The position numbers and the translations under genes are program-made. A DNA stretch of 33,012 nt, taken from contig JACXUS010000007.1 of NCBI GenBank assembly GCA_014763785.1, positions 1-33,012 of the forward strand, given 5' to 3'. Origin of the DNA: Sphingomonadales bacterium. Its GTDB lineage: Bacteria > Pseudomonadota > Alphaproteobacteria > Rhodobacterales > Rhodobacteraceae. How positions within the stretch are numbered: the stretch's first letter is position 1; every line of letters starts with the position of its first letter. Shown here piece by piece: positions 14,184 through 29,720 of this stretch. The notes beneath the pieces were generated by a model. That model did not search any database, was not told the DNA's origin, and worked only from the letters and a program-made list of their open reading frames with translations.

Positions 14184-14248
14184 CCCGTAACGGCAGCCCT
14201 TTCCAACCTCTTGCCCCGCGGATCGCGCTGAGCAGGTTGCGCTAATGA

Positions 14249-14291
14249 CAATACTTCAAGGTATTGACTGATGCGATTCTGCGTGTATGGT
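14249..14291 (+). promoter_or_regulatory. Promoter of the aromatic cluster with overlapping palindromic operator
   Basis: A perfect inverted repeat CAATAC-TTCAAG-GTATTG (14249-14266) overlaps a -35 box TTGACT (14264-14269); TATGGT (14286-14291) sits 16 bases further as -10. A GAGAGG ribosome-binding site and the ATG at 14318 follow. The arrangement fits repression by a dimeric regulator. Related copies of the repeat occur at 14555, 15913 and beside the tetR gene at 28081. Confidence 0.75.
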
Positions 14292-14317
14292 CTTGGATGG
14301 GAGCGAGAGGAACGCAT

Positions 14318-15844
14318 ATGACATCGGTTGATTTGCTCGACTGGCAGGGTTTCCTGTCGGCCGGAAGCCTTGTGGATATCTTCGAGACAGGGGCCGTTTC
14401 GCATCCGGAGCGCCTGTTTATCTCGGATAAGCAGATCAAACTGACCTAGGGAGAGGCGCGCAAGGCGGTTGTGGGCTTCGCTGAAACCTATGGCGACCGG
14501 CTGCGCGGGCAGGACGTTGCGATGTTCATGAGCAACGGCTCAAACTTCTTCGTTACATACCTTGGAGTATTGTTTTAGGGCGGCCGCCCGGCCCTGTTGA
14601 ACGCGGCGATGCCGCGCAAATCCGGCGCCAGCCTGATGAGCAGCCTGCGTCCGGAAATGGTGTTCTCGGATCACCCGCTCGAGTTTGACGCGCGCGCGGT
14701 GCTTGTCGATCACGCGCGGATCGCGGTCTGGATCGAGGCCGCAGGCAGCCGGCCAAGCGCCTGCGGGCGCGGCGATGACCCGGCCACCTATCTCTATTCG
14801 GGCGGGACCACGGGCGTGCCCAAGCGGATCCTTTATACCCACCGCAAACTGGTCGAGGCGGGGGCACGGATGCAATGGGGCTGGCCGGTGCGCGCGGCCG
14901 AAGTGTTCCTGCCGATCGCGCCCTACAGCCATATCTATGGCTTCCTTGCGGGCATCTGCCTGCCGCTGCAATCGGGGGGGACCTCGATCGTGCCCGAGCG
15001 GTTTCACCCCGCCGACGTGCTCGACCTGATCGAGCGCGAGAAGGTGACGGTGCTGGGCGGCGGCCCGCCCGCGATCTATCAGGCGCTGATGGCCGATCCC
15101 CACCTCGACAGGCGCGATCTCAGCTCGTTGCGGGTCTGTCCGGGCGGCGGCGCGGCCTATCCGGTCGAGGTGCATCGGCGCTGGAAGGCGTTGACCGGGC
15201 TGACGATCTACGAAGGCTACGGCATGACCGAAGTCGCGCCGATCACCGTGAACACCGAGGCGCAGGGCCACCGCGCCGGTGCCGCGGGCAAGCCGGTGCC
15301 GGGCACCGAGGTCGATATCGTCGATCTGGAAACCGGGACGCGCTCCTTGCCGCGGGGCGAGGCGGGCGAAATTCGGGTGCGCGGCCCGCATATCATGCCG
15401 GGCTATTGCAACAATGCCGAGGAAACCGCCCTCGTGCTGCGCGATGGCTGGGTGCATACGGGCGATATCGGGGTGCTTGACGAGGCGGGCTTCCTGACCA
15501 TCACCGACCGCAAGAAGGACGTTATCATCCACAAAGGGTTCAACGTCTTCCCGCGCGAAGTCGAAGAGGCGATCATGTCGCATCCCTCCGTTGCCGCGGT
15601 CTGCGTGGTGGGCGCCCCGGACGAGCGCGCGGGCGAGATCGTGGTGGCCTATGTCACCCTGCGCGACGGCCATGTGATCGACCAAGAGGCGCTGTGCAAC
15701 GAAAGCAAGCAGTTCCTCGTGACCTACAAACTGCCGGGACGGGTCGAGTTTCTGGACGCCTTGCCGCTGACACCGGCCGGGAAAGTCGATCGCCTCGCCC
15801 TCAGGGCCCGTGCGCGCGCATCGCGGGAGACGATGAGCGCCTGA
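14318..15844 (+). pseudogene. Acyl-CoA synthetase (AMP-forming) interrupted by two in-frame TAG codons
   Basis: One reading frame of 509 codons encodes an ANL-superfamily acid-CoA ligase but holds TAG at 14447-14449 and again at 14576-14578. Similarity continues across both: N-terminus (DWQGFLSAGSLVDIFETGAVSHPERLFI), between the stops (GEARKAVVGFAETYGDRLRGQDVAMFMSNG) and after them (GGRPALLNAAMP). The remaining motifs are intact: YSGGTTGVPKRI phosphate loop, YEGYGMTEVAP, HTGDIGVLDEAGFLTITDRKKDVI and the catalytic Lys in PLTPAGKVDR. The open part after the second stop has ATGs at 14609 and 14636, but a start there would drop about 100 residues of the N-terminal domain. Either the gene is dead, or TAG is read through. 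If active it would activate an aromatic substrate or the acid released by the C-C hydrolase. Confidence 0.8.
14555..14572. promoter_or_regulatory. Second operator-like inverted repeat, inside the ligase frame
   Basis: ACATAC-CTTGGA-GTATTG matches the 14249 palindrome (CAATAC-N6-GTATTG) in both half-site cores and spacing. It falls just before the second TAG codon and is encoded by several codons unusual for this DNA (ACA, CTT, GGA, GTA, TTG). Confidence 0.5.
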
Positions 15845-15887
15845 CGGTTTGAAGACCCACCTGTGTTGATAGGGAGGAAACACAGAC

Positions 15888-16934
15888 ATGGCGACACGGA
15901 TTCATCGCCGCACCATACTCAAAGGTATTGCCGGGGCCGCGGCGGCCAGCATGGCGGGCCTGCCCGCCCGCGCGGCCGAGACGCTCGTGCTCAATTACAA
16001 CCAATGGTTCCCGAGCGGGCATTGGTCGCAGGCCGAAGGCCTCTACAAGTGGTTCGACCAGATCGCCGAAGTCACCGAGGGGCGGGTCAAGGTTCAGGCC
16101 TCGGCCAAGCCGCTGGCCCCGCCCAACCGCAATTATCAGGCGGTGATCGACGGCGTGGCCGATATCGCCTGGGGTCCGCATGGCTATACGCCGGGGGTGT
16201 TTCCGCTGACCGAGATGGTCGAGCTGCCCTTCATCACCAAGGATGCGGGCGTCTCGTCGCAGGCCTATTGGCGGCTGTGGAAGGCCCATTTCGAGCCGAC
16301 CGGCATGCAGCGCGATGTCGTGACGCTGGCGATGCATGTGACCGCGGGCGGCAATATCTCGATGCGCAAGGCGCCGGTCACCTCGATGGCCGATCTCCGG
16401 GGCAAGAAGATGCGGGTGCCCACCCCGGTCGTGGGCCGGGTGCTGCAGGCGCAGGGCGTCGTGCCGGTATCGGGTTCGCTGACCGAGCTGCGCGAAATGC
16501 TCTCGCGCGGGATCGTCGACGGGACGGTGATCTCGGACGGGCTGATCACCGGCTTCAAGGTCGATGAGGATGTGCAGGGCGTGACCCGGGTGCCGGGCGG
16601 GATCTTCTCGAATTCGGCTTTCGTCATCATGAACCGGGGCAAATGGGACCAGATCAGCCCGGCAGATCAGGCCGCGATCATGGCCATCTCGGGCGAGGCG
16701 CTGTCGCATCGAATGGGCGCGCTGTGGCAGGCCAATGACCTGATCGCGGGCGAGATGTTCCGCGCGCGTCTGGGCGCGGCCTATGTCACCGCCTCCGACA
16801 GCTTCATGGCCGAAATCGCCGCGGCCTTCTCGGGCGAGCTGGACGCGTGGAAAGCGACCGCAACGGGCCTTGGCATCGACGCCGCGGCGGCGGTGGCCTT
16901 CTACAACGCCGAGATCGAAGGGCTCAGCCGGTAA
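15888..16934 (+). CDS. dctP: TRAP transporter substrate-binding protein (DctP family)
   Basis: 348-residue periplasmic solute-binding protein of a tripartite ATP-independent transporter. The N-terminus HRRTILKG followed by a hydrophobic Ala-rich stretch ending PARAAE is a twin-arginine signal, so it may be exported folded. The mature part has family features: DQIAEVTEGRVKVQ, the DLRGKKMRVPTP motif with the Arg that binds a carboxylate, and NSAFVIMNRGKWDQISPADQAAI. A carboxylate-bearing, probably aromatic, ligand is inferred from the downstream catabolic genes. A GGGAGG site lies ahead of the ATG, and the stop overlaps the dctQ start by one base (TAATG). An operator-like repeat sits at 15913-15930 inside the signal-peptide codons. 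Confidence 0.92.
   Translation: MATRIHRRTILKGIAGAAAASMAGLPARAAETLVLNYNQWFPSGHWSQAEGLYKWFDQIAEVTEGRVKVQASAKPLAPPNRNYQAVIDGVADIAWGPHGYTPGVFPLTEMVELPFITKDAGVSSQAYWRLWKAHFEPTGMQRDVVTLAMHVTAGGNISMRKAPVTSMADLRGKKMRVPTPVVGRVLQAQGVVPVSGSLTELREMLSRGIVDGTVISDGLITGFKVDEDVQGVTRVPGGIFSNSAFVIMNRGKWDQISPADQAAIMAISGEALSHRMGALWQANDLIAGEMFRARLGAAYVTASDSFMAEIAAAFSGELDAWKATATGLGIDAAAAVAFYNAEIEGLSR
15913..15930. promoter_or_regulatory. Third operator-like inverted repeat, in the dctP signal-peptide codons
   Basis: CCATAC-TCAAAG-GTATTG differs from the perfect palindrome at 14249 at only one of twelve arm positions. It uses a rare ATA codon within the Tat signal. It could be a roadblock or auxiliary operator, or chance similarity. 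Confidence 0.4.
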
Positions 16935-17431
16935 TGCACCCGCATGATCTGATGAAATATGCGCAGTGGCCCTTCCGCGCTCTGGCTGGCGTGGCCCTTG
17001 TGGCGCTGGTCGTGATCACCGCGGTCGATGTCATCGGCCGGGTGGTCCTGTCGCGCCCGCTGGGCTTTGCCTATGAGCTGGTCGGCCTGCTGCTGGGGGT
17101 TGCGGTCTATGCCGGGCTGATCGGCATGAACTGGACCCGCGACCACATCCGCATCGACCTGATCGAGGGCGTGCTCTGCCGCTTCCCGCGCTTCGATCGG
17201 CTGCGGGCGGGCGTGGTCTGGGGGCTGGAGGTCGTCTTCTTCACCCTCGTCGCGCTTTATGTGGCGCGGCAGGCGATGCAGATGCAGCGCTGGCACGAGA
17301 CCTTCCTGTTCCTGCCGCTCGAAAAATGGATGCCGCTCGCGGTCTACGCGGGCTTCGCAGCCCTTGCAGCCCTCAGCACGGTTCTGGCCGCCGTGCCCCT
17401 GCTGAGGGCCCGCATCGAGGATTTGAAATGA
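16934..17431 (+). CDS. dctQ: TRAP transporter small membrane subunit (DctQ family)
   Basis: 165-residue membrane protein with four predicted helices (about 14-36, 46-64, 91-113, 127-150). The VDVIGRVVLSRPLGFAYELVGLLLGVAVYAGLI segment and TRDHIRIDLIEG loop are characteristic of DctQ. It pairs with DctM to form the sodium-driven uptake complex. The start overlaps the dctP stop by one base, and its stop overlaps dctM in an ATGA, so the three subunits are translationally coupled. Confidence 0.92.
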   Translation: MHPHDLMKYAQWPFRALAGVALVALVVITAVDVIGRVVLSRPLGFAYELVGLLLGVAVYAGLIGMNWTRDHIRIDLIEGVLCRFPRFDRLRAGVVWGLEVVFFTLVALYVARQAMQMQRWHETFLFLPLEKWMPLAVYAGFAALAALSTVLAAVPLLRARIEDLK

Positions 17432-18717
17432 TCATCGGATTGGCATTTCTCGCCCTCATGGTGCTGCTGTTCCTGCGCACCCCGATTGCGGTGGCGACGG
17501 GGCTGGTCGGGCTGGCGGGGCTGGCCGCGTTTCAGGGCTGGCCCGCGGCCCTCTCGCAGGTCGGCATCATCGCTTCCGAGACGGTTCTGACCTATGAATT
17601 CGCGGTGATCCCGCTGTTCATCGTGATGGGCGCCTTCATCGCGCATTCGGGCATCGCCGAAGAGCTGTTCCGCGCCTGCTATGCGCTGGTCGGGCATTGG
17701 CGCGGCGGACTCGCGCTGTCGACCATCGTGGCCTGCGGCGGGTTCGGCGCGGTCTCGGGCTCGTCGCTGGCGACGGCGGCCACGATGTCGCGCATCGCTT
17801 ACCCGCAGATGAAGCGCTATGGCTACAACACCCCCCTTGCCACCGGCGCGATTGCCGCGGGCGGCACCCTTGGCATCCTGATCCCGCCCTCGATCGCGCT
17901 GGTCTTCTACGGCATCATGACCGAGACCGATATCGGCGCGCTCTTTATGGCCGGGATCGTGCCGGGCATTCTGGGGATGTTCCTCTATGCGGCGGCGGTG
18001 CTCTGGACCGTGCTGCGCGACCCGCAGGCGGGGCCCGCGGGCCGGAAAATGACCCTGCCCGAGCGGCTCCGGGCGCTGGCGGGGGTCTGGCCGGTGGTCC
18101 TGCTGTTCGGGGTCGTGATGGGCGGGATCTATGGCGGGCTGTTTTCCCCCACCGAAAGCGCCGGGATCGGGGCCTTCGGGGCGCTGCTGATCGCGGCGCT
18201 GCGCGGGCGGCTGAGCCTGCGGATGCTTCGGACCTCGCTCAGCGACGGGATATCGACCACCGTATCGCTGATGATGATCCTGATCGGCAGCTTCCTGTTT
18301 GCCAATCTCGTCAATGTCGCGCGGGTGCCGCAAGCGCTGGTCAGCGGGATCGAGGCCATGGCCGTGCCGCCGCTGGCGGTGATCTTCCTGATCATCCTGA
18401 TCTATGTGGTGCTGGGCTGTGTGCTGGAAAGCATCTCGATGATGCTTCTGACCGTGCCGGTGTTCTTCCCGCTGATCGTTTCGCTCGGCTACGACCCGAT
18501 CTGGTTCGGTGTTCTGGTCGTGGTGGTGGTCGAGATTTCGCTGATCACACCGCCCATCGGGCTGAATGTCTTCATCCTCAACGCCGTGCTGCGCGATGTG
18601 CAGCTGACCGAGATCTTTCGCGGCGTGGTGCCCTTCATCGCGGCCGATGTGGCGCGGGTTCTGCTCGTGGTCTTCATCCCGGCGCTGTCACTCACCCTGC
18701 CATATCTGCTGAAATAG
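17428..18717 (+). CDS. dctM: TRAP transporter large membrane subunit (DctM family)
   Basis: 429-residue permease with about twelve hydrophobic helices, the ion-coupled translocation subunit of the TRAP system. Conserved elements include FLRTPIAVATGLVGLAG, GGFGAVSGSSLATAATMSRIAYPQMKRYGY, GTLGILIPPSIALVFYG and EISLITPPIGLNVFI. The SGSS/ATAA and PPS motifs belong to the substrate and Na-binding hairpins. Length is usual for the family. ATGA overlap with dctQ; the next gene, a hydrolase, starts nine bases after the stop behind a GGAGG site, tying transport and catabolism in one transcript. Confidence 0.93.
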   Translation: MIIGLAFLALMVLLFLRTPIAVATGLVGLAGLAAFQGWPAALSQVGIIASETVLTYEFAVIPLFIVMGAFIAHSGIAEELFRACYALVGHWRGGLALSTIVACGGFGAVSGSSLATAATMSRIAYPQMKRYGYNTPLATGAIAAGGTLGILIPPSIALVFYGIMTETDIGALFMAGIVPGILGMFLYAAAVLWTVLRDPQAGPAGRKMTLPERLRALAGVWPVVLLFGVVMGGIYGGLFSPTESAGIGAFGALLIAALRGRLSLRMLRTSLSDGISTTVSLMMILIGSFLFANLVNVARVPQALVSGIEAMAVPPLAVIFLIILIYVVLGCVLESISMMLLTVPVFFPLIVSLGYDPIWFGVLVVVVVEISLITPPIGLNVFILNAVLRDVQLTEIFRGVVPFIAADVARVLLVVFIPALSLTLPYLLK

Positions 18718-18726
18718 GAGGGCTTC

Positions 18727-19554
18727 ATGCTCGACACCGACATTCAAACGCTGTCGCTGATTGCGGCGGATCACAAGACCAACCTGCATCGCGCGGGCAC
18801 GGGCAAGCCGGTCGCGCTGCTGCATGGCTCGGGGGCGGGGGTCTCGGCCTGGGCCAACTGGCGCAAGGTCATCGCGCCGCTGTCGCAGGGGTTCGACATC
18901 ATCGCCCCCGATATCGCGGGCTTTGGCGCGACCGAGCTGAAACCCGACACGCAGTATACGATCCTGCTCTGGGTCGAGCATTTCATCGGCATTCTCGACG
19001 CGCTGGGGATCGAGAAGATCTCGGTCGTGGGCAATTCCTTCGGCGGGGCGCTGGGGCTGATGACGGCGATCAACCACCCCGAGCGGATCGACCGGCTGGT
19101 GTTGCTCGGCACGCCCTGCGGACAGTTCCCGCTGACCGAGGGGCTGCGCGCGCAGGGCGAGTTTGACGGGACCCTGCCCTCGATGCGCCGGGCGATCAGC
19201 TATTTCCCCTATGATGCCTCGATCATCACCGAGGATCTGATCGCGGCGCGTTTTGAGGCCGCGACCCGCGATGGCGCGCTCGAGGCCTTCCGCAAGCTGA
19301 TGCCGCCGCCCACCGGCGAGACGCCGATCGTGCGCGGCATCCCCGAAAAGCTGCTGCGCAAGGTCCCGCACAAGACCCTGATCCTGCACGGCCGCGAGGA
19401 TCGCGTGGTGCCCTATGAGCGCGCGCTGGACATGCACCAATGGCTGGAAAACTCGCAGCTGCATTCCTTCGGCAAATGCGGCCACTGGGTCCAGATCGAG
19501 CGCGAGGTAGAATTCCTGAACCTTGTCAAAGACTTCCTTGGAGGTGACGCATGA
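18727..19554 (+). CDS. Meta-cleavage product (C-C bond) alpha/beta hydrolase
   Basis: 275-residue alpha/beta-hydrolase that splits a ring-fission product into 2-hydroxypenta-2,4-dienoate and a carboxylic acid. The triad is Ser104 (GNSFGG), Asp225 (HGREDRVVP) and His253 (GHWVQIE). HGSGAGVSAWANW (33-45) forms the oxyanion loop seen in MhpC, BphD, CarC and related C-C hydrolases. Its place beside an extradiol dioxygenase makes this role much more likely than a general esterase. Since the products enter the hydratase-aldolase route encoded further on, the ring carries a carbon side chain or second ring. ATGA overlap with the next gene. Confidence 0.9.
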   Translation: MLDTDIQTLSLIAADHKTNLHRAGTGKPVALLHGSGAGVSAWANWRKVIAPLSQGFDIIAPDIAGFGATELKPDTQYTILLWVEHFIGILDALGIEKISVVGNSFGGALGLMTAINHPERIDRLVLLGTPCGQFPLTEGLRAQGEFDGTLPSMRRAISYFPYDASIITEDLIAARFEAATRDGALEAFRKLMPPPTGETPIVRGIPEKLLRKVPHKTLILHGREDRVVPYERALDMHQWLENSQLHSFGKCGHWVQIEREVEFLNLVKDFLGGDA

Positions 19555-19808
19555 GCCGCAACACGCTGGAAAAGGTGCTTTACGACCTGTCCACCTCGGG
19601 CGCGCACAAGAAGAAATTCGCCGAAGACCCCGAGACATTCCTCAGCCGCTATCAGCTTGTCGAGGACGAGCGCGCCCTGATCCGCGACTACAAGGTGCGC
19701 GCGCTGGCCGATCTGGGCGTCAACACCATGCTGACCTGGGGCTTCTGGCTGCAGGCCGGGAAATCGAACCGCGAATATCTCAAGGTCATGAAGCGCGAGG
19801 AGGCGTAA
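19551..19808 (+). CDS. Extradiol dioxygenase small subunit, LigA-like
   Basis: 85-residue all-helical protein of the LigA superfamily, the alpha subunit of class III (type II) extradiol dioxygenases such as protocatechuate 4,5-dioxygenase LigAB and aminobiphenyldiol dioxygenase CarBaBb. Features are FAEDPETFLSRYQLVEDERALIRDYKVRALADLGVNTMLTWGF, where the small subunit caps the active site of the large one. It is shorter than LigA of Sphingobium and close to CarBa. ATGA overlap with the hydrolase and two bases from the large-subunit start show it is made with its partner. Confidence 0.88.
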   Translation: MSRNTLEKVLYDLSTSGAHKKKFAEDPETFLSRYQLVEDERALIRDYKVRALADLGVNTMLTWGFWLQAGKSNREYLKVMKREEA

Positions 19809-19810
19809 TT

Positions 19811-20644
19811 ATGGCGACGATCGTCGGGGGCTTTGTCGCCCCGCATAACCCGGTGATGTATTTCAACCCGCAAGGCGCCTCGCAAGAGCAGTCCGACGCC
19901 TGCTATGCCGCCTATGCGGCGATGGCTGAACGGATCAAGGCGCTTGAGGCCGACGCCGCCATCGTGATCGGCTGCGACCATTACATCCTCTTCGGGACCG
20001 AATGCCTGCCGCCCTATGTGATCTCGACCGGCGAGATCGAGGGGCCGGTGGACCAGTTGCCCGGCCTCAGGCGCAAGCCGCTGCCCTCGCATGGCGCGCT
20101 GGGCGAGCATATCGCCAAGGTCGGCCGTGAGACCGGCTTCGACTGGACCGTGGGCCGCGCGCTCAATGTCGATCACTCGGTCGCGGTGCCCAATCACCTG
20201 ATGCTGGAGCCCACCGGCCGGGACATCCCGCTTGTGGCCGTGATGCTGGCCTGTGGTGTGGACCCCTATCTGCCGATGAAACGCGCCTGGGATCTGGGCG
20301 AGCATATCGCCGATGCGGTCGCCAGCTACCCGGGCACCGAGCGCGTGGTGGTGATCGGCTCGGGCGGCATTTCGCACCATGTCGGCGACGAGCGCATGGG
20401 CGAGGTGAACCCGGAGTTCGACCGCAGGATCCTCGATATCGTCACCCGCGGCGACAAGGCGGCGATGCTGGCGCTGAGCGATGCGGAAATCCTGCGCGAG
20501 GGCGGCAACGGCGCGATGGAGATCCGCACCTATGCCTGCGCAATGGCCGCGACCCGCGCCGCGGGCGGCCGGGTCATCGGCTATGAGCCGGTCGAGGGCT
20601 GGGTCACCGGCATGGGCTTTGCCGAACTCGAGGTGGCGGCATGA
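19811..20644 (+). CDS. Extradiol ring-cleavage dioxygenase large subunit, LigB-like
   Basis: 277-residue Fe(II) enzyme of the LigB superfamily that opens a catechol-type ring next to the hydroxyl pair with O2. Expected ligands are in place: His12 (VAPHNP), His57 (IGCDHYIL) and Glu237 (GAMEIRTY); His189 in GGISHH corresponds to the acid/base His of LigB. Size and partner resemble CarBb or LigB, not the single-subunit MhpB. Together with the Rieske oxygenase genes its substrate should be the dihydroxylated product of that system. Its ATG follows the small subunit by two bases, and its stop overlaps the ferredoxin start (ATGA). Confidence 0.92.
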   Translation: MATIVGGFVAPHNPVMYFNPQGASQEQSDACYAAYAAMAERIKALEADAAIVIGCDHYILFGTECLPPYVISTGEIEGPVDQLPGLRRKPLPSHGALGEHIAKVGRETGFDWTVGRALNVDHSVAVPNHLMLEPTGRDIPLVAVMLACGVDPYLPMKRAWDLGEHIADAVASYPGTERVVVIGSGGISHHVGDERMGEVNPEFDRRILDIVTRGDKAAMLALSDAEILREGGNGAMEIRTYACAMAATRAAGGRVIGYEPVEGWVTGMGFAELEVAA

Positions 20645-20970
20645 TCATCGAGATCTGCGACAGCGCCGCGATCCCCGAAGGCGAGATCCGCCGCTTCGAG
20701 CCCGAAGGCTTCGCCCCGATCGCCGTGGCGCGCCACGAGGGGCGGCTCTACGTCTTCCCCGACCGCTGCCCGCATGCCGACGAAAGCCTCGCCGAGGGCT
20801 GGCTCGAGGACGGGCGCGTGGTCTGCGGCGTGCATTTCGCCGAATTCGAGCTGGACACCGGCAAGGTGCATAACCCGCCCGTCGGCTGCCCCAACCTGTC
20901 TTTCTTCAGATGCGAGGACCGCGACGGCAAGGTCTTCGCCACCCTCACCGGAGGACCCGAATATGTGTGA
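20641..20970 (+). CDS. Rieske [2Fe-2S] ferredoxin of the ring-hydroxylating oxygenase
   Basis: 109-residue soluble ferredoxin that carries electrons from the reductase to the oxygenase. Cluster ligands are Cys43 and His45 (CPHADESL) and Cys62 and His65 (CGVHFAEF), with the usual 16-residue gap. The segment FELDTGKVHNPPVGCPNLSFFRCEDRDGKVF follows the typical Rieske end. It overlaps the LigB-like gene by four bases and the alpha-subunit gene by eight. The reductase that should feed it is encoded at 28127, past the tetR gene. Confidence 0.93.
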   Translation: MIIEICDSAAIPEGEIRRFEPEGFAPIAVARHEGRLYVFPDRCPHADESLAEGWLEDGRVVCGVHFAEFELDTGKVHNPPVGCPNLSFFRCEDRDGKVFATLTGGPEYV

Positions 20971-22363
20971 CACAGGATGCGCCGGAAACGCCGGCCGCCC
21001 GAACATGGCCCCGGTCTATCCCAAGGCCGGACGCTATCCCGACTATGCCCGGCTGGTGGATCGCAACCGCGCGCAGGTCGACCGCCGCGTCTTCGTGGAC
21101 GAGGGCGTCTATCAGGCCGAACTGCAGCAGATCTTCGCCCGATCGTGGCTGTTTCTGGCGCATGAGAGCCAGATCCCGAACCCGGGCGATTTCATCCGCA
21201 CCTCGATGGGCGAAGATGACGTGATCGTGGTGCGCCAGCGGGACCGGACGGTCCGGGCCTTCCTCAATTCCTGCCCGCACCGGGGCAACCGGGTCTGCAT
21301 GGTCGATGCCGGCAGCAAGGCGCGCGGCTTCATCTGCAACTATCACGGCTGGTCCTTCGGGATCGACGGCGGCCTGCGCGGCACCGATGGCAAGGTCTAT
21401 GAGAAGGACGAAACCTTCGAGAAGGCGCAGATCGGCCTGACCCCCGTCGCGCAGGTGGACAGCTACAAGGGCCTGATCTTCGGCACGTTCGATCCGAATG
21501 CCCCCTCGCTGCTGGAGTTCTTCGGGCCCTTCACCTTCTATCTCGATATCATGCTCGACAACGATGAGGGCGGGACCGAATTCATCGGCGGCGCGATCAA
21601 ATCCGAGATCGACTGCAACTGGAAATTCCCGGCCGAGAATTTCGTCGGCGACATCCTGCATGCGTTCTGGACCCATCAGTCCGGCGCGCAGGCGATCCTT
21701 GGCGGCGGTGTCGATCTTGGCAAACGCTATGACGAGCTGGCGTTTCAGGCCTCGGTCTATGGCCATGGCATCGAAACCAACCTCGACAAGGTCGGCAACA
21801 CCCGCACGCTGGGCTATCCCGAGCTGGTCGATTACGTCTTCGACCTGTCGGAACGCGCCCGCGACCGGCTGGGCGATCTGCGCTCGCGGGCGATCGGGGC
21901 GATTTCGTCCTGCACCATCTTCCCGAATTTCTCCTTCCTGCCGGGGCAGAACACCTTCCGCGTCTGGCACCCGCGCGGGCCGGGCAAGATCGAGCTGGTG
22001 GTCTGGACGCTGGTCAACAAGAACGCCCCCGATCACATCAAGGAGCTGTATCGCAAGGGCGTGATGATGACCTTCTCTCCGGGCGGGGTCTTCGAGATGG
22101 ATGACGGCGAGAACTGGGAATATTCGACCCGCGTCAATCAGGGCTTCGTCACGCGTCAGCAACCGCTGCATTACGCGCTGGGACTGCAAAGCGCCGATCT
22201 GGACCGCGATCTGCCCGGGCATATTCACAAGGGCTCGCTCAACGATGCCAATCAGCGGCTGTTCTACACCCGCTGGGCGGAATTCATGGAACATGACAAC
22301 TGGACCGATCTGCAGAACGGTGAAACCGCGCCGCCGCAGAAAACGGCCAGCGCGGCGGAGTGA
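20963..22363 (+). CDS. Ring-hydroxylating dioxygenase alpha subunit
   Basis: 466-residue catalytic subunit that adds both atoms of O2 to an aromatic ring. The Rieske centre is Cys104/His106 (CPHRGNRVC) and Cys125/His128 (CNYHGWSF). The mononuclear iron site follows Asp-x2-His-x4-His at GDILHAFWTH (Asp230, His233, His238). Length matches three- or four-component dioxygenases of the naphthalene/biphenyl/benzoate superfamily. The start at 20963 has a GGAGG site and an N-terminus with Cys2 and Cys6; a start at MAPVYPKAG (21005) is possible. It sits with a beta subunit and ferredoxin, so an alpha3beta3 enzyme is expected. The substrate cannot be deduced without phylogeny. Confidence 0.93.
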   Translation: MCDTGCAGNAGRPNMAPVYPKAGRYPDYARLVDRNRAQVDRRVFVDEGVYQAELQQIFARSWLFLAHESQIPNPGDFIRTSMGEDDVIVVRQRDRTVRAFLNSCPHRGNRVCMVDAGSKARGFICNYHGWSFGIDGGLRGTDGKVYEKDETFEKAQIGLTPVAQVDSYKGLIFGTFDPNAPSLLEFFGPFTFYLDIMLDNDEGGTEFIGGAIKSEIDCNWKFPAENFVGDILHAFWTHQSGAQAILGGGVDLGKRYDELAFQASVYGHGIETNLDKVGNTRTLGYPELVDYVFDLSERARDRLGDLRSRAIGAISSCTIFPNFSFLPGQNTFRVWHPRGPGKIELVVWTLVNKNAPDHIKELYRKGVMMTFSPGGVFEMDDGENWEYSTRVNQGFVTRQQPLHYALGLQSADLDRDLPGHIHKGSLNDANQRLFYTRWAEFMEHDNWTDLQNGETAPPQKTASAAE

Positions 22364-22367
22364 GGAC

Positions 22368-22925
22368 ATGCTGGATCTGCTCGATATTTCCAAACCCTTC
22401 GCCGATCTCGACGCGCCCGTCGATCTGGAGACCGAACGCGCGATCACCCGCTGGCTGCATGCCGAGGTGCGCCTGCTCGACGCCGAGCGCTATCAGGAAT
22501 GGCTGACGCGCTGCATCGACCCGGACATCCGCTATTGGATGCCCGATATGGAAACGCGCCGGCGCGACGATCCGCGCGGCATGTTCGCCTATGGCGAGGC
22601 GGCCTATTTCGACGACAGCTGGAAGGAACTCGAAATCCGCGTGAAGCGCTATAACGAGCCCTCGGCCTGGGCCGACAACCCGCAGACGCGGCATCTGCAT
22701 CAGATCTCGAATATCGAGGTGAATGCGACCGAGGATCCCACGCTTTTTGCGGTGCATTCGGTCTTTACCAATGTGCGCAACCGCAACGAGGCGGATCAGG
22801 ATATCGTCCATGGCCGCCGCGAGGATGTGCTGCGCGCGGGGCCGGGCGGCTATCGCCTGCTGCGCCGCCGGGTGTTCATCGTGCAGAACGTCCTGCTGTC
22901 GAAAAACCTCAATACGTTCTTCTGA
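22368..22925 (+). CDS. Ring-hydroxylating dioxygenase beta subunit
   Basis: 185-residue SnoaL/NTF2-like protein that packs against the alpha subunit. Recognisable features are ITRWLHAEVRLLDAERYQEWLTRCIDPDIRYWMP near the N-terminus and the C-terminal RREDVLRAGPGGYRLLRRRVFIVQNVLLSKNLNTFF, with the nearly invariant RRR-ended strand. Length fits benzene/biphenyl-type beta subunits. It starts four bases after the alpha stop, with a GAGGAC site overlapping that stop, so expression is coupled. Confidence 0.93.
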   Translation: MLDLLDISKPFADLDAPVDLETERAITRWLHAEVRLLDAERYQEWLTRCIDPDIRYWMPDMETRRRDDPRGMFAYGEAAYFDDSWKELEIRVKRYNEPSAWADNPQTRHLHQISNIEVNATEDPTLFAVHSVFTNVRNRNEADQDIVHGRREDVLRAGPGGYRLLRRRVFIVQNVLLSKNLNTFF

Positions 22926-22938
22926 TGGTGGGGGTCTG

Positions 22939-23736
22939 ATGGGACGGCTGGAGGGATATTCCGCCTTGGTCACGGGCGGCGGCAAGGGCATCGGCCGCGC
23001 CGTGGTCGATCGCTTCGTGGCCGAAGGGGCGCGGGTGGTCGTGCTTGTGCGCTCAGGCAGCGACGCCGAGGCGCTGGCGGCGCAGCATGGCGACCGCGTT
23101 GCCTGCGTGACCGGCGATGTGCGCAACTGGCAAGACAATGTCGCGGCCGTGGAGATGGCCGAGACGCGATTTGGCAAGCTCGATGTGCTGGTGCCCAACG
23201 CCGGGGTCTATGATTTTTCGGACCCGTTCGAGAGCCTCGCGGGCGAGGATCTGGCGACGCGCTATCGCCAGCTCTTCGATGTCAATGTGCTGGGCTATCT
23301 GCTGGCCACCCGCGCGGCGCTCGGGGCGCTGCGCGCAAGCCGGGGCAGCATCATCTATACGCTGTCGTCCTCGTCGTTCTTTGCGGGCGGCGGCGGCGCG
23401 CTCTATGTCAGCTCGAAACATGCGCTGGTCGGGACGGTGAAACAACTCGCCTATGAGCTGGCCCCCGAGATCCGCGTGAATGCCGTGGCGCCGGGGGGCA
23501 CGCGCACCGGGCTTGGCGGTCTGCCGGGCGATACCCGCGCGCTGGCCGATCTGGCGGGCTTCGAGGACATGGTCGCGCGCAACGTGCCGCTCGGGTTTCT
23601 CTCGGAGCCCGAGGACCACGCCGGCCTTTATGTGACGCTGGCCGCGCGCGAGGAGAGCCGCTTTGTCACCAGCGAGATCATCCGCTCTGACGGCGGGATC
23701 GAAGTGCGCGGACGGCGCAGAAAGACAAGCTCATGA
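22939..23736 (+). CDS. cis-dihydrodiol dehydrogenase (SDR family, BphB-like)
   Basis: 265-residue NAD-dependent short-chain dehydrogenase that rearomatises the cis-dihydrodiol made by the dioxygenase. It has TGGGKGIGRA (12-21) for NAD, NAGV (87-90), Ser143 or a neighbour in SSSSF, and Tyr156-Lys160 (YVSSK) as catalytic pair. The wording of ALVTGGGKGIGRAVVDRFVAEGARV and of DVNVLGYLLATRAAL matches BphB/NahB-type diol dehydrogenases more than general SDRs. It starts 13 bases after the beta subunit and overlaps the next gene by an ATGA. Confidence 0.9.
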   Translation: MGRLEGYSALVTGGGKGIGRAVVDRFVAEGARVVVLVRSGSDAEALAAQHGDRVACVTGDVRNWQDNVAAVEMAETRFGKLDVLVPNAGVYDFSDPFESLAGEDLATRYRQLFDVNVLGYLLATRAALGALRASRGSIIYTLSSSSFFAGGGGALYVSSKHALVGTVKQLAYELAPEIRVNAVAPGGTRTGLGGLPGDTRALADLAGFEDMVARNVPLGFLSEPEDHAGLYVTLAAREESRFVTSEIIRSDGGIEVRGRRRKTSS

Positions 23737-24701
23737 CCGCACGCGAACAGATCGAGGCGCTGAAAGCGCGGCTGCGCCTGCCGGTGATTGCGGCGCCGAT
23801 GTTTCTGGTCTCGGGGCCCGAGTTGGTGATCGCGGCGGCGCGCGCGGGCATCATGGGGGCGTTTCCCGGCCCGAACGGGCGCACCATCGCCGACCTGCGC
23901 GACTGGTTCGAGACCATTCACGCGGCCCTTGGGCCCGCGCAGCTGCCCTTCGCCTTCAACATGATCACCCATTCGAGCTATGGCCGCTTCGACGAGGAAC
24001 TGGCTCTGGTGGCGCGCTTCAAGCCCGAGATCGTCATCACCGCGCTGGGCGGGCCGCACCGGGTCAGTGACGTGGTGCATGGCTATGGCGGGCTGGTCTT
24101 TGCCGATGTGGGCAGCCCGACCTATGCCCGCAAGGCGATCGAGAAGGGCGCGGACGGGCTGGTTCTGGTCTGCGCGGGCGCGGGCGGCCATACCGGAACC
24201 TATGCCATGGCGCCCTTCCTCGATGAGGTGCGCCGCTTCTTCGACGGGCCGATTGCGGTCGGCGGCGGGATTTCCACCGGCGAGGCCGTGCTGGCCGTCG
24301 AGATGCTCGGCGCCGATTTCGCCTATATCGGCACGCGCTTTCTGGGCGCGAGCGAAACCCTGATCGGCGACGGCTATCGCCAGATGGTGATCGACAGCGG
24401 GATCGAGGATCTGATCGCCTCGAAGGCCATCACCGGCGCCTTGGGCAACTGGATGAAGGCCTCGGTCGCGGCCGCCGGTCTCGATCTCGAGGCGATGAAG
24501 GCCGAGGCCAGGATCGACTTCTCGGGCGACATGCACTCGGGCGCGAAGGCGTGGAAAACCGTCTGGAGCGCGGGGCAGGGCGTGGGCCAGATCCACGCGA
24601 TCACCCCCCTGGCGCAGATCGTCGAGGATCTGGCCGCGGGATATGAGGCGGCGGGCCGCAGGCTGGCCGCGCGTTTTGTCAAACCGGAGGAGCCGGCATG
24701 A
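23733..24701 (+). CDS. Nitronate monooxygenase family flavoprotein
   Basis: 322-residue FMN TIM-barrel protein of the 2-nitropropane dioxygenase/nitronate monooxygenase family, which also holds FabK enoyl reductases. Motifs are PVIAAPMFLVSGPELVIAAARAGIMGAFPG, GADGLVLVCAGAGGHTG with His153 at the position of the nitronate base, and GPIAVGGGISTGEAV with YIGTRFLGASE for the FMN phosphate. It is not a usual member of a meta-cleavage operon, yet ATGA overlaps on both sides (SDR before, hydratase after) fix it in this transcript. It could detoxify nitronates, handle a nitro-group substrate, or reduce an unsaturated intermediate. No choice is possible from sequence. Confidence 0.85.
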   Translation: MTAREQIEALKARLRLPVIAAPMFLVSGPELVIAAARAGIMGAFPGPNGRTIADLRDWFETIHAALGPAQLPFAFNMITHSSYGRFDEELALVARFKPEIVITALGGPHRVSDVVHGYGGLVFADVGSPTYARKAIEKGADGLVLVCAGAGGHTGTYAMAPFLDEVRRFFDGPIAVGGGISTGEAVLAVEMLGADFAYIGTRFLGASETLIGDGYRQMVIDSGIEDLIASKAITGALGNWMKASVAAAGLDLEAMKAEARIDFSGDMHSGAKAWKTVWSAGQGVGQIHAITPLAQIVEDLAAGYEAAGRRLAARFVKPEEPA

Positions 24702-25468
24702 GCTTGCAACAGATCGCAGAGGCCCTGCGCGCCGCCGAGGCCAGCGCGACGCCGATCCCCGCCATTCGCGCGCATCTGCGCAGCGGCGAAGACGCCTATG
24801 CCATTCAGGAACTCAACACCACGGCGCGTCTGGCCGCCGGCGGGCGTCTGGTCGGGCGCAAGATCGGGCTGACCAACCCGGCCGTTCAGGCGCAGCTGGG
24901 CGTCGATCAGCCCGATTACGGCATGTTGTTTGCCGATATGGACCTGCCCCATGGCGCGGTTCTGCCATGGTCGGAGGGCGCGCAGTGGAAGGCCGAGGCC
25001 GAGCTTGCCTTCGTCATCGGCCGCGATCTGACGCAGCCCGATTGCACCATGGCCGAGGCGATGCGCGCGGTCGAATATGTGGTGCCCGCGCTCGAGATCG
25101 TGGGCTCGCGGATTGCCGGTTGGGATATCCGCTTCCTCGACACGGTCGCCGATAATGCCTCCTCGGCCTTCTTCACGCTGGGGCCATCGGCGCGCCGCCT
25201 GATCGACGCCGATCTGCTGAACTGCCGGATGGAGATGCGCGCGGGCGCCGAGGTAGTCTCGCAGGGGGAGGGCCGCGCCTGTCTCGGCTCGCCGCTGAAC
25301 GCGCTCTTGTGGCTGGCGCGAACCATGGCCCGCGCGGGCCGCCCGCTGGCCGAGGGGGATGTGGTGCTGTCGGGCGCTTTGGGGCCGATGGTCACCGCCA
25401 GCCCCGGCGCGCGCTTCACCGCCGAGATCGAAGGATTTGGCGAAACTGCCATCGGATTTGGAGACTGA
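24698..25468 (+). CDS. mhpD: 2-oxopent-4-enoate (2-hydroxypenta-2,4-dienoate) hydratase
   Basis: 256-residue hydratase of the MhpD/BphH family that adds water to the dienoate released by the hydrolase, giving 4-hydroxy-2-oxovalerate. The metal-binding acid triad is Glu100 and Glu102 (WKAEAELAF) and Glu133 ([10 protein letters not shown]). [26 protein letters not shown] (53-78) is the diagnostic N-terminal motif, and [16 protein letters not shown] is also conserved. Length is normal. ATGA overlap with the flavoprotein gene; one base separates its stop from the acetaldehyde dehydrogenase start. Confidence 0.92.
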
Positions 25469-25469
25469 C

Positions 25470-26414
25470 ATGGACAAGGTCAAATGCGCGATCATCGGAT
25501 CGGGCAATATCGGGTCGGATCTGATGATCAAGATCATGCGCACCTCGGAGGTTCTGACGATGGGCGCCATGGTCGGGATCGACCCCGCATCGGACGGCCT
25601 GACGCGCGCGGCGCGGATGGGGGTTGCGACCACACATGAGGGGCTTGCCGGGCTGCGCGCCTTGCCCGATTACAAAGATATCCGCATCGTCTTCGATGCG
25701 ACCTCGGCGGGCGCGCATAAACGCCATTCCGAGGCGCTGATCGCGGATGGCAAGCAGGTGATCGACCTGACCCCCGCGGCCATCGGCCCCTTCGTCATTC
25801 CCGCGGTCAATATCGACGCGCATCCCGGCGCGATGAACGTCAATATTGTGACCTGCGGCGGGCAGGCGACGATCCCGATGGTGGCGGCGGTCAACCGCGT
25901 CAGGCCGGTGCATTACGGCGAGATCGTCGCCTCGATCTCGTCGAAATCGGCAGGCCCAGGCACGCGCGCCAATATCGACGAATTCACCGAAACCACCGCC
26001 CATGCCATCGAGCAGGTCGGCGGCGCCGGGATGGGCCGCGCGATCATCATCCTGAACCCCGCCGAGCCGCCGATGATCATGCGCGACACGGTCTATTGCC
26101 TGTGCGACGAGGCCGACCCGGAAGCGATCCGCGCCTCGATCGCCGAGATGGTGCGCGAGGTGCAGGGCTATGTGCCGGGCTATCGGCTGAAACAGGCCGT
26201 GCAATTCGAGCATATCGGCGCCAACGCGCCCCTGCATATCCCCGAGATGGGCCGAGATTTCACCGGGCTCAAGGTCTCGATCTTCCTCGAGGTCGAGGGC
26301 GCGGCGCATTACCTGCCCGCCTATGCCGGCAATCTCGACATCATGACGAGCGCCGCACTGCGCACCGCCGAGCGGCTCGCCATCAAACGCAACTGGGTCA
26401 AGGAGGCCGCGTGA
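25470..26414 (+). CDS. mhpF: Acetaldehyde dehydrogenase (acylating)
   Basis: 314-residue CoA-dependent enzyme (MhpF/DmpF/BphJ) that turns acetaldehyde into acetyl-CoA with NAD. It shows the nucleotide-binding [11 protein letters not shown] (8-18), the catalytic Cys129 in [13 protein letters not shown], and conserved ATSAGAH and [22 protein letters not shown] segments. In this family it forms a channelled complex with the aldolase encoded directly after it; the two genes share one base at 26414. Confidence 0.95.
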
Positions 26415-27433
26415 TGCCCAAGCTTTATGTTCAGGACGTCACGCTGCGCGATGGCATGCATGCGATGCGCCACCAATATGACCTCGGTCAGGTCCGTGCG
26501 ATCGCGCAGGCGCTCGATGAGGCCGGGGTGGATGCGATCGAGGTGACCCATGGCGATGGCGTTGCGGGCTCGACGATCAACTACGGTTTTGGCCGGCACA
26601 CCGATACCGCATGGATCGCCGAGGCGGCCAAGGTGATCCGCTCGGCCCGCCTGACCTGCCTGCTGGTGCCCGGCATCGGGACCTTGCAGGACCTGCGCCG
26701 CGCGCATGAGGCGGGCGTGACCTCGGTGCGCGTCGCCACCCATTGCACCGAGGCCGATGTGGCCGCCCAGCATATCGCCGCGGCGAAAGAGATGGGGATG
26801 GATGTCTCGGGCTTTCTGATGATGGCGCATCGGGTCGCGCCCGCGACGCTGGCCGAACAGGCCCGGCTGATGGAAAGCTATGGCGCCGATTGCGTCTATT
26901 GCACCGACAGCGCCGGGCGGCTGACCATGGCCGATGTGGCCGCGCGGTTCGAGGCCTATCGCGAGGCGCTGGGCCCCGCGACGCAGCTTGGTGCGCATAT
27001 GCATGAAAACCTGTCGCTGAGCGTGGCCAATTCGGTCGTGGCGGTCGAGCATGGCGCGACCCGCGTCGATGCCTCGCTGGCGGGGATGGGCGCGGGCGCG
27101 GGCAATACGCCGATCGAGGCCTTCGTGGCGGTCGCGAACCTTTATGGCTGGGAGCACGGCTGCGATCTGTTCAAGCTGCAGGATGCGGCCGATGATCTGG
27201 TGCGCCCGCTGCAGGACCGCCCCGTCCGCGTCGACCGCGAGACGCTTTCGATCGGCTATGCCGGGGTCTATTCGTCCTTCCTGCGCCATGCCGAGACCGC
27301 CGCGCGCCTCTATGGGCTCGATACCCGCGACATCCTGATGGAGCTGGGGCGGCGCGGCATGGTCGGCGGTCAGGAGGATATGATCGTCGATGTGGCGCTC
27401 GACATGGTCAAGGCGCTTGAGGCCGCGCAATGA
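26414..27433 (+). CDS. mhpE: 4-hydroxy-2-oxovalerate aldolase
   Basis: 339-residue divalent-metal aldolase (MhpE/DmpG/BphI) that splits 4-hydroxy-2-oxovalerate into pyruvate and acetaldehyde. The TIM barrel starts [14 protein letters not shown] with Arg12, Asp13 and His20; the metal pair is His195 and His197 ([15 protein letters not shown]). The C-terminal helical domain ([42 protein letters not shown]) docks the dehydrogenase. It ends the operon: its stop lies five bases from that of the convergent tetR gene, and I see no terminator between. Confidence 0.95.
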
Positions 27434-27438
27434 CCGCC

Positions 27439-28059
27439 CTAGCGCGTCTGTCCGGCCTGCCCCGCGGTCATCGTGAGGGCCTTTTCCAGGAATTCCTCCT
27501 GACTCATCGGGTCGAGCGAGCTGTGCAGGATGGAATCCCCCATGATCAGGCAATAGGCGAGATAGGCGCGTTTGCGCGCTTCCTCGGGCGCATAGCCCAT
27601 GTCGCGAAACAGCTTCGAGATATAGTCGAAGCGAATCTCGTCGACCTCGGCCACCGCCTTGCGCGGCATCTCCACCCGACGCGCCCAGTCCCGGATCGAG
27701 GTCTCGATCTGCGCGAAAGCGGGCGAATTCTTGCGCCGCGGCAACGAGAACAGGCTGGTCAGCCGCGCGCGGGGATCGTCGCCGGCAATCGAGATCGAGC
27801 GGATGACATTCAGCGTCATCTTCTTGCGCCAATGCCCCAGCATCGCGCCCAGAAGCGCGCTGCGGGTCTTGAAATGCCAGTAAAAGCTGCCTTTCGTGAC
27901 CCCCAGCCGGTCGCACAGCGTGTCGATCTTGATGCCGCGGACATTCTCGTTGACCAGAATCTGCAGCGCCTCCTGCACCCAGTCCTGCTCGTTCAGCGGA
28001 CTGTCCTTGTGACGGCTGGTGGGGCGGCGTTTCGTCTGGGTCTTGGCAGGTTCGGACAC
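27439..28059 (-). CDS. TetR-family transcriptional regulator of the aromatic cluster
   Basis: 206 residues from a GTG at 28059, which has an AAGGAG site nine bases upstream. An ATG start at 28128 would reach into the divergent reductase gene. The basic N-terminal tail is followed by a TetR HTH (about 25-72; IDTLCDRLGVTKGSFYWHFKTRSALL). The ligand-binding part has TSIRDWARR and YLAYCLIMGDSILHSS. Position between the catabolic operon and the reductase gene suggests that it represses both. Its own upstream region holds a copy (28081-28098) of the palindrome found at the cluster promoter, which would allow control of both units and of itself. Confidence 0.9.
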   Translation of the reverse strand: MSEPAKTQTKRRPTSRHKDSPLNEQDWVQEALQILVNENVRGIKIDTLCDRLGVTKGSFYWHFKTRSALLGAMLGHWRKKMTLNVIRSISIAGDDPRARLTSLFSLPRRKNSPAFAQIETSIRDWARRVEMPRKAVAEVDEIRFDYISKLFRDMGYAPEEARKRAYLAYCLIMGDSILHSSLDPMSQEEFLEKALTMTAGQAGQTR

Positions 28060-28080
28060 GGGATGCTCTCCTTCGCTCGA

Positions 28081-28098
28081 CAGTACCTTAGAGCATTG
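28081..28098. promoter_or_regulatory. Operator-like repeat between tetR and the reductase gene
   Basis: CAGTAC-CTTAGA-GCATTG is an imperfect copy (4 of 6 arm pairs) of the 14249 palindrome. The likeness continues to the right: both sites run directly into TTGACTG. It lies in the 67-base spacer between the divergent starts, so one bound regulator could shut both genes. A candidate -10 TATTAA (28108-28113) faces the reductase gene. Confidence 0.55.
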
Positions 28099-28126
28099 AC
28101 TGGCCGATATTAAGAGGGACAAATCC

Positions 28127-29335
28127 ATGGAAACCGTTGTGATCGTCGGTGCCGGACAGGCGGGGGCGGCGGCTGCGCTGTCGCTGCGCGACTTCGGCTT
28201 TGCGGGCGCTATCGAGGTGATCGGCCAAGAGCCCGATCCGCCCTATGAGCGCCCCGAACTGTCCAAGGGCTACCTTGCCGAAACCGTGCCCTTCGGGGCG
28301 CTGGTCGCGCTTGCCCCCGAGAAGGCCGAGGCGCTGGGCATCACGCTGCGGCTGTTTTGCGACGTGCGCGAGATCGACCGGGCGGGGGCGCGGCTGCGCA
28401 CGGATAGCGGCTGGACCCGCTATGACCATCTCATTCTGGCGACCGGAGGGCAGCCGCGTCGCCTGCCCCTGCCCGAGGCGCTGGCGCGCAAGGCCTGTGC
28501 CATCCGCACCCGCGCGGATGCCGATCAGATCCGGGCCCGGTTGCGACAGGCGGCCTCGGTGGTGGTGATCGGCGGCGGTTGGCTCGGCACCGAACTGGCG
28601 TTGACCGCGCGGTCGTTCGGGGCGCAGGTCGATCTGATCGAGACCGCGCCGCGGCTTTGTGCCCGGGTGGCGCCGGTCTGGCTGTCGGACCGGCTGGCCG
28701 AGATCCAGACCGCGGCCGGGGTCCGGCTGCATCTCGGGCAGGTGCCCGGCTTCGAGGCGCAGGGGGCGATCCGTCTTGGCCCCGCGCGTCTGCAGCCCGA
28801 TCTGATCGTCGAAGCGGTCGGGATGATCGCCCATGACGGTCTGGCCCGCGCGGCCGGGCTGGACTGTGACGATGGCATCCTTGTGGACAGCCACAATCTG
28901 ACGGCGGACCCGGCGATCTTTGCGATTGGCGATTGCGCCAAGGTGGCGGGCGAGGCACGCTGCGAAAGCTGGCAATATGCCAATCACTCGGCCCGGGTCG
29001 CGGCGGCCCGGATCACCGCCCGGCCACGGCCAAAGCCGGAGCCGCGCTGGTTCTGGAGCGTGCAGGGCGCGTCCCGCGTGCAGATGCTGGGCGAGTGTCC
29101 CGAGGGCGCCGTCCAGATCGTGCGCCAGATCGGCCGCGGGCAGAGCTGCCTGTTCCTGTCGGGGGCGATGCTGGTGGGCTGCGTCGCCATCGACACGCCC
29201 CGCGACATCGCCGAGGCGCGCAAGGTGATGGCCTCGCGCCGGGCGCTCGATCTCGACCGGATCCGCGATCTGAAGGTGCCGCTCTCGCAGGCGCTGCTGG
29301 ATGTGCGCGAGGCAGTGGCCAATTATCCGGCCTGA
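28127..29335 (+). CDS. Ferredoxin reductase of the ring-hydroxylating oxygenase
   Basis: 402-residue FAD/NAD(P)H reductase of the glutathione-reductase-like group (BphA4, TodA, rubredoxin reductase). FAD-binding VVIVGAGQAGAAAALSLR (4-21), YERPELSKGYL, the NAD motif VVVIGGGWLGTELAL (about 146-160), and the second FAD motif AIFAIGDCAKV are all present. The C-terminal dimerisation-type domain begins at about 305 with WFWSVQG. It should pass electrons from NADH to the Rieske ferredoxin at 20641, completing the four-component dioxygenase. An AGAGGGA site precedes the ATG. Separate, divergent transcription from tetR is unusual for an oxygenase component. Confidence 0.92.
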   Translation: METVVIVGAGQAGAAAALSLRDFGFAGAIEVIGQEPDPPYERPELSKGYLAETVPFGALVALAPEKAEALGITLRLFCDVREIDRAGARLRTDSGWTRYDHLILATGGQPRRLPLPEALARKACAIRTRADADQIRARLRQAASVVVIGGGWLGTELALTARSFGAQVDLIETAPRLCARVAPVWLSDRLAEIQTAAGVRLHLGQVPGFEAQGAIRLGPARLQPDLIVEAVGMIAHDGLARAAGLDCDDGILVDSHNLTADPAIFAIGDCAKVAGEARCESWQYANHSARVAAARITARPRPKPEPRWFWSVQGASRVQMLGECPEGAVQIVRQIGRGQSCLFLSGAMLVGCVAIDTPRDIAEARKVMASRRALDLDRIRDLKVPLSQALLDVREAVANYPA

Positions 29336-29398
29336 CGAGGCCGCAGCGCCGTGCCCGGCCGGAGGCCGCCGGGCCGCCCTGTCCGCCGCCCGGCGTAG

Positions 29399-29434
29399 AA
29401 AAAGGCCGCGCAGGTTGCCCTGCGCGGCCTTTTC
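29399..29434. terminator. Bidirectional intrinsic terminator
   Basis: Perfect 15-bp palindrome AAAAGGCCGCGCAGG (29400-29414) and complement (29419-29433) around TTGC. With A-rich and T-rich outer ends it works on either strand, serving the reductase gene on + and rpmJ on -. Confidence 0.92.
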
Positions 29435-29645: not shown

Positions 29646-29720
29646 TGGTGGGCGGTACTGGGATCGAACCAGTGGCCACTACGATGTCAACGTAGTGCTC
29701 TACCGCTGAGCTAACCGCCC
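29646..29720 (-). tRNA. tRNA-Val (anticodon GAC)
   Basis: On the minus strand a 75-base cloverleaf folds with acceptor stem GGGCGGT/ACCGCCC, D arm GCTC...GAGC, anticodon stem CTACG/CGTAG around TTGACAT (anticodon GAC), and T arm ACTGG-TTCGATC-CCAGT. The 3' CCA is encoded (29646-29648). Confidence 0.97.

Follow-up and report, generated by a model that had tools for sequence, protein, structure and literature searches.

In-frame stop codons in bacterial genes have been described by Belinky et al. 2021 (PMC7918605). In the parts of that article drawn on here, such stops are reported to be widespread, to occur in genes with a dN/dS below 1 and to be mostly short-lived; frequent read-through is favoured as the explanation, and the large-scale study used stops that are shared by two or more species.

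The locus described here has two in-frame TAG codons in a gene for an acyl-CoA ligase. It is located in a stretch of 33,012 nucleotides, here called the window (positions 1-33012 of contig C217), from a genome assembly of 3,413,188 bases in 579 contigs. Among the three explanations offered in the first-pass annotation, a young pseudogene is the one best supported; a restart yielding a shortened enzyme found little support and read-through of the stops none. We infer that the ligase gene has very probably been inactivated recently, as a nonsense allele or very young pseudogene, and that ordinary decay rather than a novel reading of stop codons is responsible. An aromatic-acid cluster would formerly have carried a working acyl-CoA ligase as its first gene, as it does in Actibacterium naphthalenivorans and Salipiger pentaromativorans, and two codons of the ligase would have changed to UAG in this lineage. 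Translation should then end after 43 residues, with the other cluster genes examined staying open.

The interrupted frame and its orthologs

The ligase gene is a single frame of 508 codons followed by TGA, starting with an ATG that is preceded by a plausible ribosome-binding site (GAGAGGA) and, on translation, containing two internal stops, both TAG (Table 1). With the stops written as X, Pfam family PF00501 matches residues 22-363 (E 2e-64, 218.2 bits against a gathering score of 29.9) and PF13193 matches residues 414-489 (E 1.9e-19, 70.8 bits against a gathering score of 24.5). By both domains it is a member of the AMP-binding acyl-CoA ligase family, with a frame that is interrupted. The sequences YSGGTTGVPK, YGMTE and TGD and a lysine close to the C-terminus, which we take to be motifs typical of the family, are all present. 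Among solved structures, the top sequence matches are 4-coumarate-CoA ligases, aligned from residue 64-71 on. Tblastn alignments to the near orthologs form one piece, from residue 1-3 to residue 491-502, so there is no frameshift. The first-pass annotation had described two in-frame amber codons, at 14447 and 14576, in an otherwise intact frame, with similarity running through both without a frameshift, in the first gene of an operon; translation, tblastn and the Pfam matches bear this out, and genes for DctP, DctQ and DctM and for catabolic enzymes follow downstream. The genome holds no close paralogue of the ligase, the next best match being 36% identical.

Table 1. Coordinates of the ligase frame, the palindromes and the cluster genes in the window
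Feature	Position	Strand	Remarks
Perfect 18-bp palindrome (6-6-6, CAATAC-N6-GTATTG), promoter region, putative TetR-type operator	14249-14266	.	pattern scan
Acyl-CoA ligase (AMP-binding) frame with two internal TAG	14318-15844	+	translation, Pfam, tblastn, near orthologs
First in-frame TAG, codon 44	14447-14449	+	Trp in all near orthologs (7 loci, 6 distinct)
Degenerate palindrome copy, 2 mismatches, inside ligase frame	14555-14572	.	in L023 and L024 at 306-307 bp from promoter copy
Second in-frame TAG, codon 87	14576-14578	+	Cys or Ser in near orthologs
Longest remaining conventional ORF of the frame, 415 aa, TTG start	14597-15844	+	no good ribosome-binding site seen
TRAP transporter: DctP 15888-16934, DctQ 16847-17431, DctM 17326-18717 (ends TAG)	15888-18717	+	open
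Alpha/beta hydrolase, LigB-type extradiol dioxygenase, ring-hydroxylating dioxygenase alpha and beta	18727-22925	+	open
SDR dihydrodiol dehydrogenase, NMO-like protein, hydratase, acetaldehyde dehydrogenase, aldolase	22723-27433	+	
TetR-family regulator, candidate palindrome reader	27439-28128	-	degenerate palindrome copy at 28081-28098
Pyridine-nucleotide reductase with Reductase_C domain	28127-29335	+	

Near orthologs are present at seven loci, which contain six distinct sequences from five lineages (L027 and L030 share one coding sequence, and L025 resembles L027 at 97%). All are uninterrupted and 65-77% identical to the window ligase over nearly the full length. The closest are those of A. 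naphthalenivorans (L024; 77% over residues 1-491) and S. pentaromativorans (L023; 76% over residues 1-501), followed by L025, L026, L027, L029 and L030, with 65-66%. In a protein tree that took in the distant orthologs L031-L035 and left out L004 and L030 (identical to L027), the window gene is the sister of L024 and then of L023 (SH-aLRT 89 and 90).

The Trp that all seven near loci have at the first site is encoded by TGG, one change away from TAG. At the second site, Cys (TGC) is found in L023, L024 and L029 and Ser (TCG) in the other four loci (three distinct sequences). The Tyr and Ala that had been expected at the two sites from the sequence alone are wrong for this subfamily and belong to the distant group L031-L035, where Tyr occupies the first site in all five and the second is Ala in four and Ser in one. 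TAG is found at neither site in the seven near loci (six distinct) or the five distant orthologs. The TGC of L023, L024 and L029 is two changes from TAG; the second site must therefore have passed through another sense codon or undergone a double change. This distance from the Cys codon of the closest relatives counts against a simple loss. The three codons preceding the second TAG (GTA TTG TTT) are identical in the window, L023 and L024. Compared with the intact orthologs both stops are premature, as in a nonsense pseudogene, and they are of a kind that the host uses; the allele is known from one genome.

The distribution of the ligase is patchy, with matches at E <= 1e-100 in 8 of 394 genomes of the family, its own included. 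None of the 17 same-genus genomes searched shows an ortholog, intact or interrupted; the best match there has an E-value of 2.2e-58 and is 33% identical. In a plasmid collection, the best protein match is 44.5% identical and 154 records match at the DNA level, none over at least 80% of the query, three of them with their best place at 90-99% identity. All 90 records from a phage collection are below 60% identity. A literature search for A. naphthalenivorans and S. pentaromativorans together with the genes gave neither species name among the matches listed. By hand count, about 149 matches are listed over 61 genomes. Six of them, among these the window gene, carry a flagged stop within the aligned part, and two such stops occur in the window gene alone; these flags may include natural gene ends. 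Interrupted ligase frames are uncommon, not exceptional. A distant ortholog in G410 was considered as a second broken case and set aside, its flagged TGA being, in our reading of its position, the natural gene end. The lower G+C content before the second TAG was likewise discarded as a sign of decay, as several orthologs show the same.

UAG as a stop codon in this genome

The genome encodes RF1 (TIGR00019, 478.4 bits against a cut-off of 423.25). Stop codon usage was sampled over 215,150 bases, made up of 13 genome stretches and the window, from long ORFs with coding-like composition, which were chosen heuristically and are not annotated genes: of 153 such ORFs, 17 end in TAG, 17 in TAA and 119 in TGA. 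Within the cluster, DctM is 463 amino acids long in the window, L024 and L023 and ends in TAG in the first two and in TAA in the third.

Suppressor tRNAs, for which the first-pass annotation had proposed a search, were sought in two ways. ARAGORN, run on the 28 tRNA loci found, gave no CTA anticodon; tRNAs for Ile, Ser, Tyr, Phe and His are missing from this set, so the assembly or the tRNA search is incomplete and a suppressor might lie in the missing part. A tRNA-like pattern with U-CUA matched at four places, none of which is an amber tRNA. Two of these lie, by position, in the D-arm part of tandem tRNA-Glu genes on contig C331, one in C58 is not tRNA-like by eye, and the fourth, in C129, resembles the 3' part of a tRNA-Asn. 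This last sequence is located near the contig end, at about 1500-1550 of locus L083, in which ARAGORN calls nothing. For PylS, the best match scores 28.8 bits against a cut-off of 178.15; matches also occur in 13 of 14 control genomes, one of them above the cut-off. As far as could be tested, UAG is a working stop here.

That both stops are TAG is unremarkable, since TAG is the stop most easily reached in the intact genes: 65 codons of L024 and 69 of L023 are one change away from it, against 23 and 19 for TGA and 39 and 36 for TAA.

Programmed or suppressed read-through, by which both UAGs would be decoded and full-length ligase made, agrees with a dN/dS that is low across the whole frame and is helped by the incomplete tRNA catalogue. 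It would also be in line with the statement in the consulted parts of PMC7918605 that in-frame stops under purifying selection are widespread in bacteria. Against it stand the presence of RF1, the normal use of UAG as a terminator, the lack of a CTA anticodon among the tRNAs found and the PylS score below the cut-off. In addition, two ambers in series would multiply any leakiness, Trp is encoded by ordinary TGG elsewhere in the gene, and no ortholog has TAG at either site. We hold read-through to be extremely improbable, and it is the two stops in series together with the evidence on UAG that make us lean towards loss. The locus carries little weight for the genetic code, since the simple loss of a single enzyme is its most likely explanation. 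Stops combined with a low dN/dS are also the picture that a very young loss presents, and a check of RF1, stop usage and tRNAs should therefore precede any proposal of read-through.

Selection on the ligase gene

Selection was analysed with a branch codon model written by us (seven taxa, F3x4, one starting point), with stop codons and gaps treated as missing data; L030 (identical to L027), L031-L035 and L004 were left out. Omega is 0.155 on the window branch and 0.089 in the background (2dlnL 4.50), and an omega of 1 on the window branch is rejected (2dlnL 26.6). In a five-taxon run the rise is weaker, with 0.129 against 0.087 (2dlnL 2.12). When the gene is divided, codons 1-92, before the region of the second TAG, have an omega of 0.210 against a background of 0.211 (2dlnL 0.00), and the part after that region 0.146 against 0.066 (2dlnL 5.52). 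The rise is not confined to the ligase, as the window branch lies above the background in seven of the eight cluster genes tested; in the seven genes other than the ligase, among which DctP and DctM were tested with three taxa only, six values are higher (the exception is the SDR gene) and the largest 2dlnL is 1.72.

For most of the branch, the ligase gene thus encoded a functional protein, and beside the two stops it shows no clear sign of decay. As an omega of 1 is rejected, the break should have come late on the branch. A low omega together with two stops is what a very recent loss would give; read-through would also account for it, but the evidence on UAG makes this unlikely. The purifying selection that is still visible and the weak, unspecific rise in omega were counted against a loss.

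A restart at 14597 (TTG), 14609 or 14636 (both ATG) would give a shortened enzyme, kept under selection. The 415-residue ORF from the first of these retains nearly all matches to AMP-binding families, and omega is low in the part after the stops. On the other hand, none of the internal starts has a good ribosome-binding site by eye and the near orthologs are all of full length. If a short form were selected, the abandoned amino-terminal part should diverge faster, and the pattern does not fit this: in that part the window ligase is 62% identical to L023 and 61% to L024, no more diverged than these two are from each other (63%), its omega equals the background, and the slight rise is found after the stops, opposite to what a short form predicts. 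We therefore judge a restart to be very unlikely.

Genomic setting, putative operator and comparison with known systems

The first 4.8 kb of the contig align with the same-genus genome G001 at 86%, and the first 2.6 kb or so with other genomes of the genus at 81-87%. Between about 29.4 kb and the contig end, too, there are pieces that align with same-genus genomes (86-87% for G001). Since both ends align in this way, the contig belongs to the genus and foreign contamination is unlikely. Errors of sequencing or assembly, or a mixture of strains, would mean that one or both sites are sense codons in the majority of cells. The assembly is indeed fragmented, with 84.39% completeness and 4.68% contamination, and the other compared genes of the cluster are open; two substitutions without an indel, though, are not the usual pattern of read errors, and an artefact appears very unlikely to us.

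Between the two ends, same-genus matches are scattered and cover single genes (for example 75% in G003, over the acetaldehyde dehydrogenase and aldolase genes), among the 16 candidates scored per genome. A tRNA-Val gene is located at 29646-29720 and the cluster ends shortly before it. The stretch from about 14200 to 29400 ends near this tRNA gene, with only scattered same-genus matches inside.

The catabolic cluster is likely an acquired island. Its genes after the ligase are open in a gene-for-gene comparison, which extends to about 23.7 kb for L023 and L024 and to about 26.4 kb for L026; the assessment of the aldolase, TetR and reductase genes comes from Pfam matches alone. The window has one stop against a 262-residue L023 ORF that covers DctQ; the stop seems to fall in an upstream extension of this ORF, since the 194-residue version of L024 encounters none. 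Names from NCBIfam point to catabolism of the 3-phenylpropionate/cinnamate type, with every match below the curated cut-off. Homologues of the ligase and of the NMO-like protein (window 23733-24701) are near each other in L025, L027 and L030-L034, where the DNA examined contains little of the rest of the cluster. A function of these two proteins in one step or pathway is suggested.

The window contains four sites that match the palindrome with up to two mismatches, against 0.19 expected. The right half, GTATTG, is invariant in all six aligned upstream regions. With no or one mismatch, the palindrome precedes the ligase in L023, L024, L026 and L029, and L025 has the right half as well; the DNA examined at L030, L031, L034 and L004 contains no copy within two mismatches. 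The copy inside the ligase frame is located 306 bp on from the promoter copy. Further degenerate copies are found inside the start of the DctP gene (15913-15930) and near the TetR gene.

At the inner site, four of five fully conserved residues with degenerate codons share the codon in all five sequences, against 49 of 236 over the whole gene (hypergeometric P 0.007, a value computed when the conservation was already known, although the pattern scan had picked out the site; another stretch, from codon 403, also reaches four). A reasonable guess is that the inner site may serve the TetR protein of the cluster as an auxiliary operator, like O2 of the lac system. The putative operator pair at 14249 and 14555 is testable. 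Under a related explanation, the protein would be dispensable or made in traces through the two ambers, and the ligase frame would survive as a regulatory leader of which the first 260 bases or so are kept for the second putative operator of the TetR-type repressor, the operon still being tuned by its broken first gene; this we consider very unlikely. The second TAG begins three bases beyond the inner copy, a closeness that may be a coincidence.

A recent nonsense loss of the ligase can be set beside several known systems. With the interrupted genes described in the consulted parts of PMC7918605 it shares an in-frame stop in an otherwise intact frame and a dN/dS below 1; it differs in having two stops, in one genome only. 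The ligase loci of A. naphthalenivorans and S. pentaromativorans resemble the window in their DNA, which is collinear over about 9.3-9.6 kb at 80-82% identity, and in the same promoter palindrome, but they lack internal stops. Systems in which UAG is recoded, with pyrrolysine, amber suppression or a reassigned code, also have in-frame UAG in conserved frames; unlike these, the present genome has RF1, uses UAG as a stop and has a PylS match below the cut-off, and no suppressor tRNA was found. The HCA/MHP route degrades 3-phenylpropionate as the free acid. Matches to HcaE, HcaB and 2-keto-4-pentenoate hydratase, all below the NCBIfam cut-offs, link the cluster to the genes of this route, from which it differs by the CoA ligase and TRAP transporter at its head. 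The probable loss of the ligase suggests that CoA activation may be dispensable in this lineage, the cluster being otherwise like that of the free-acid route.
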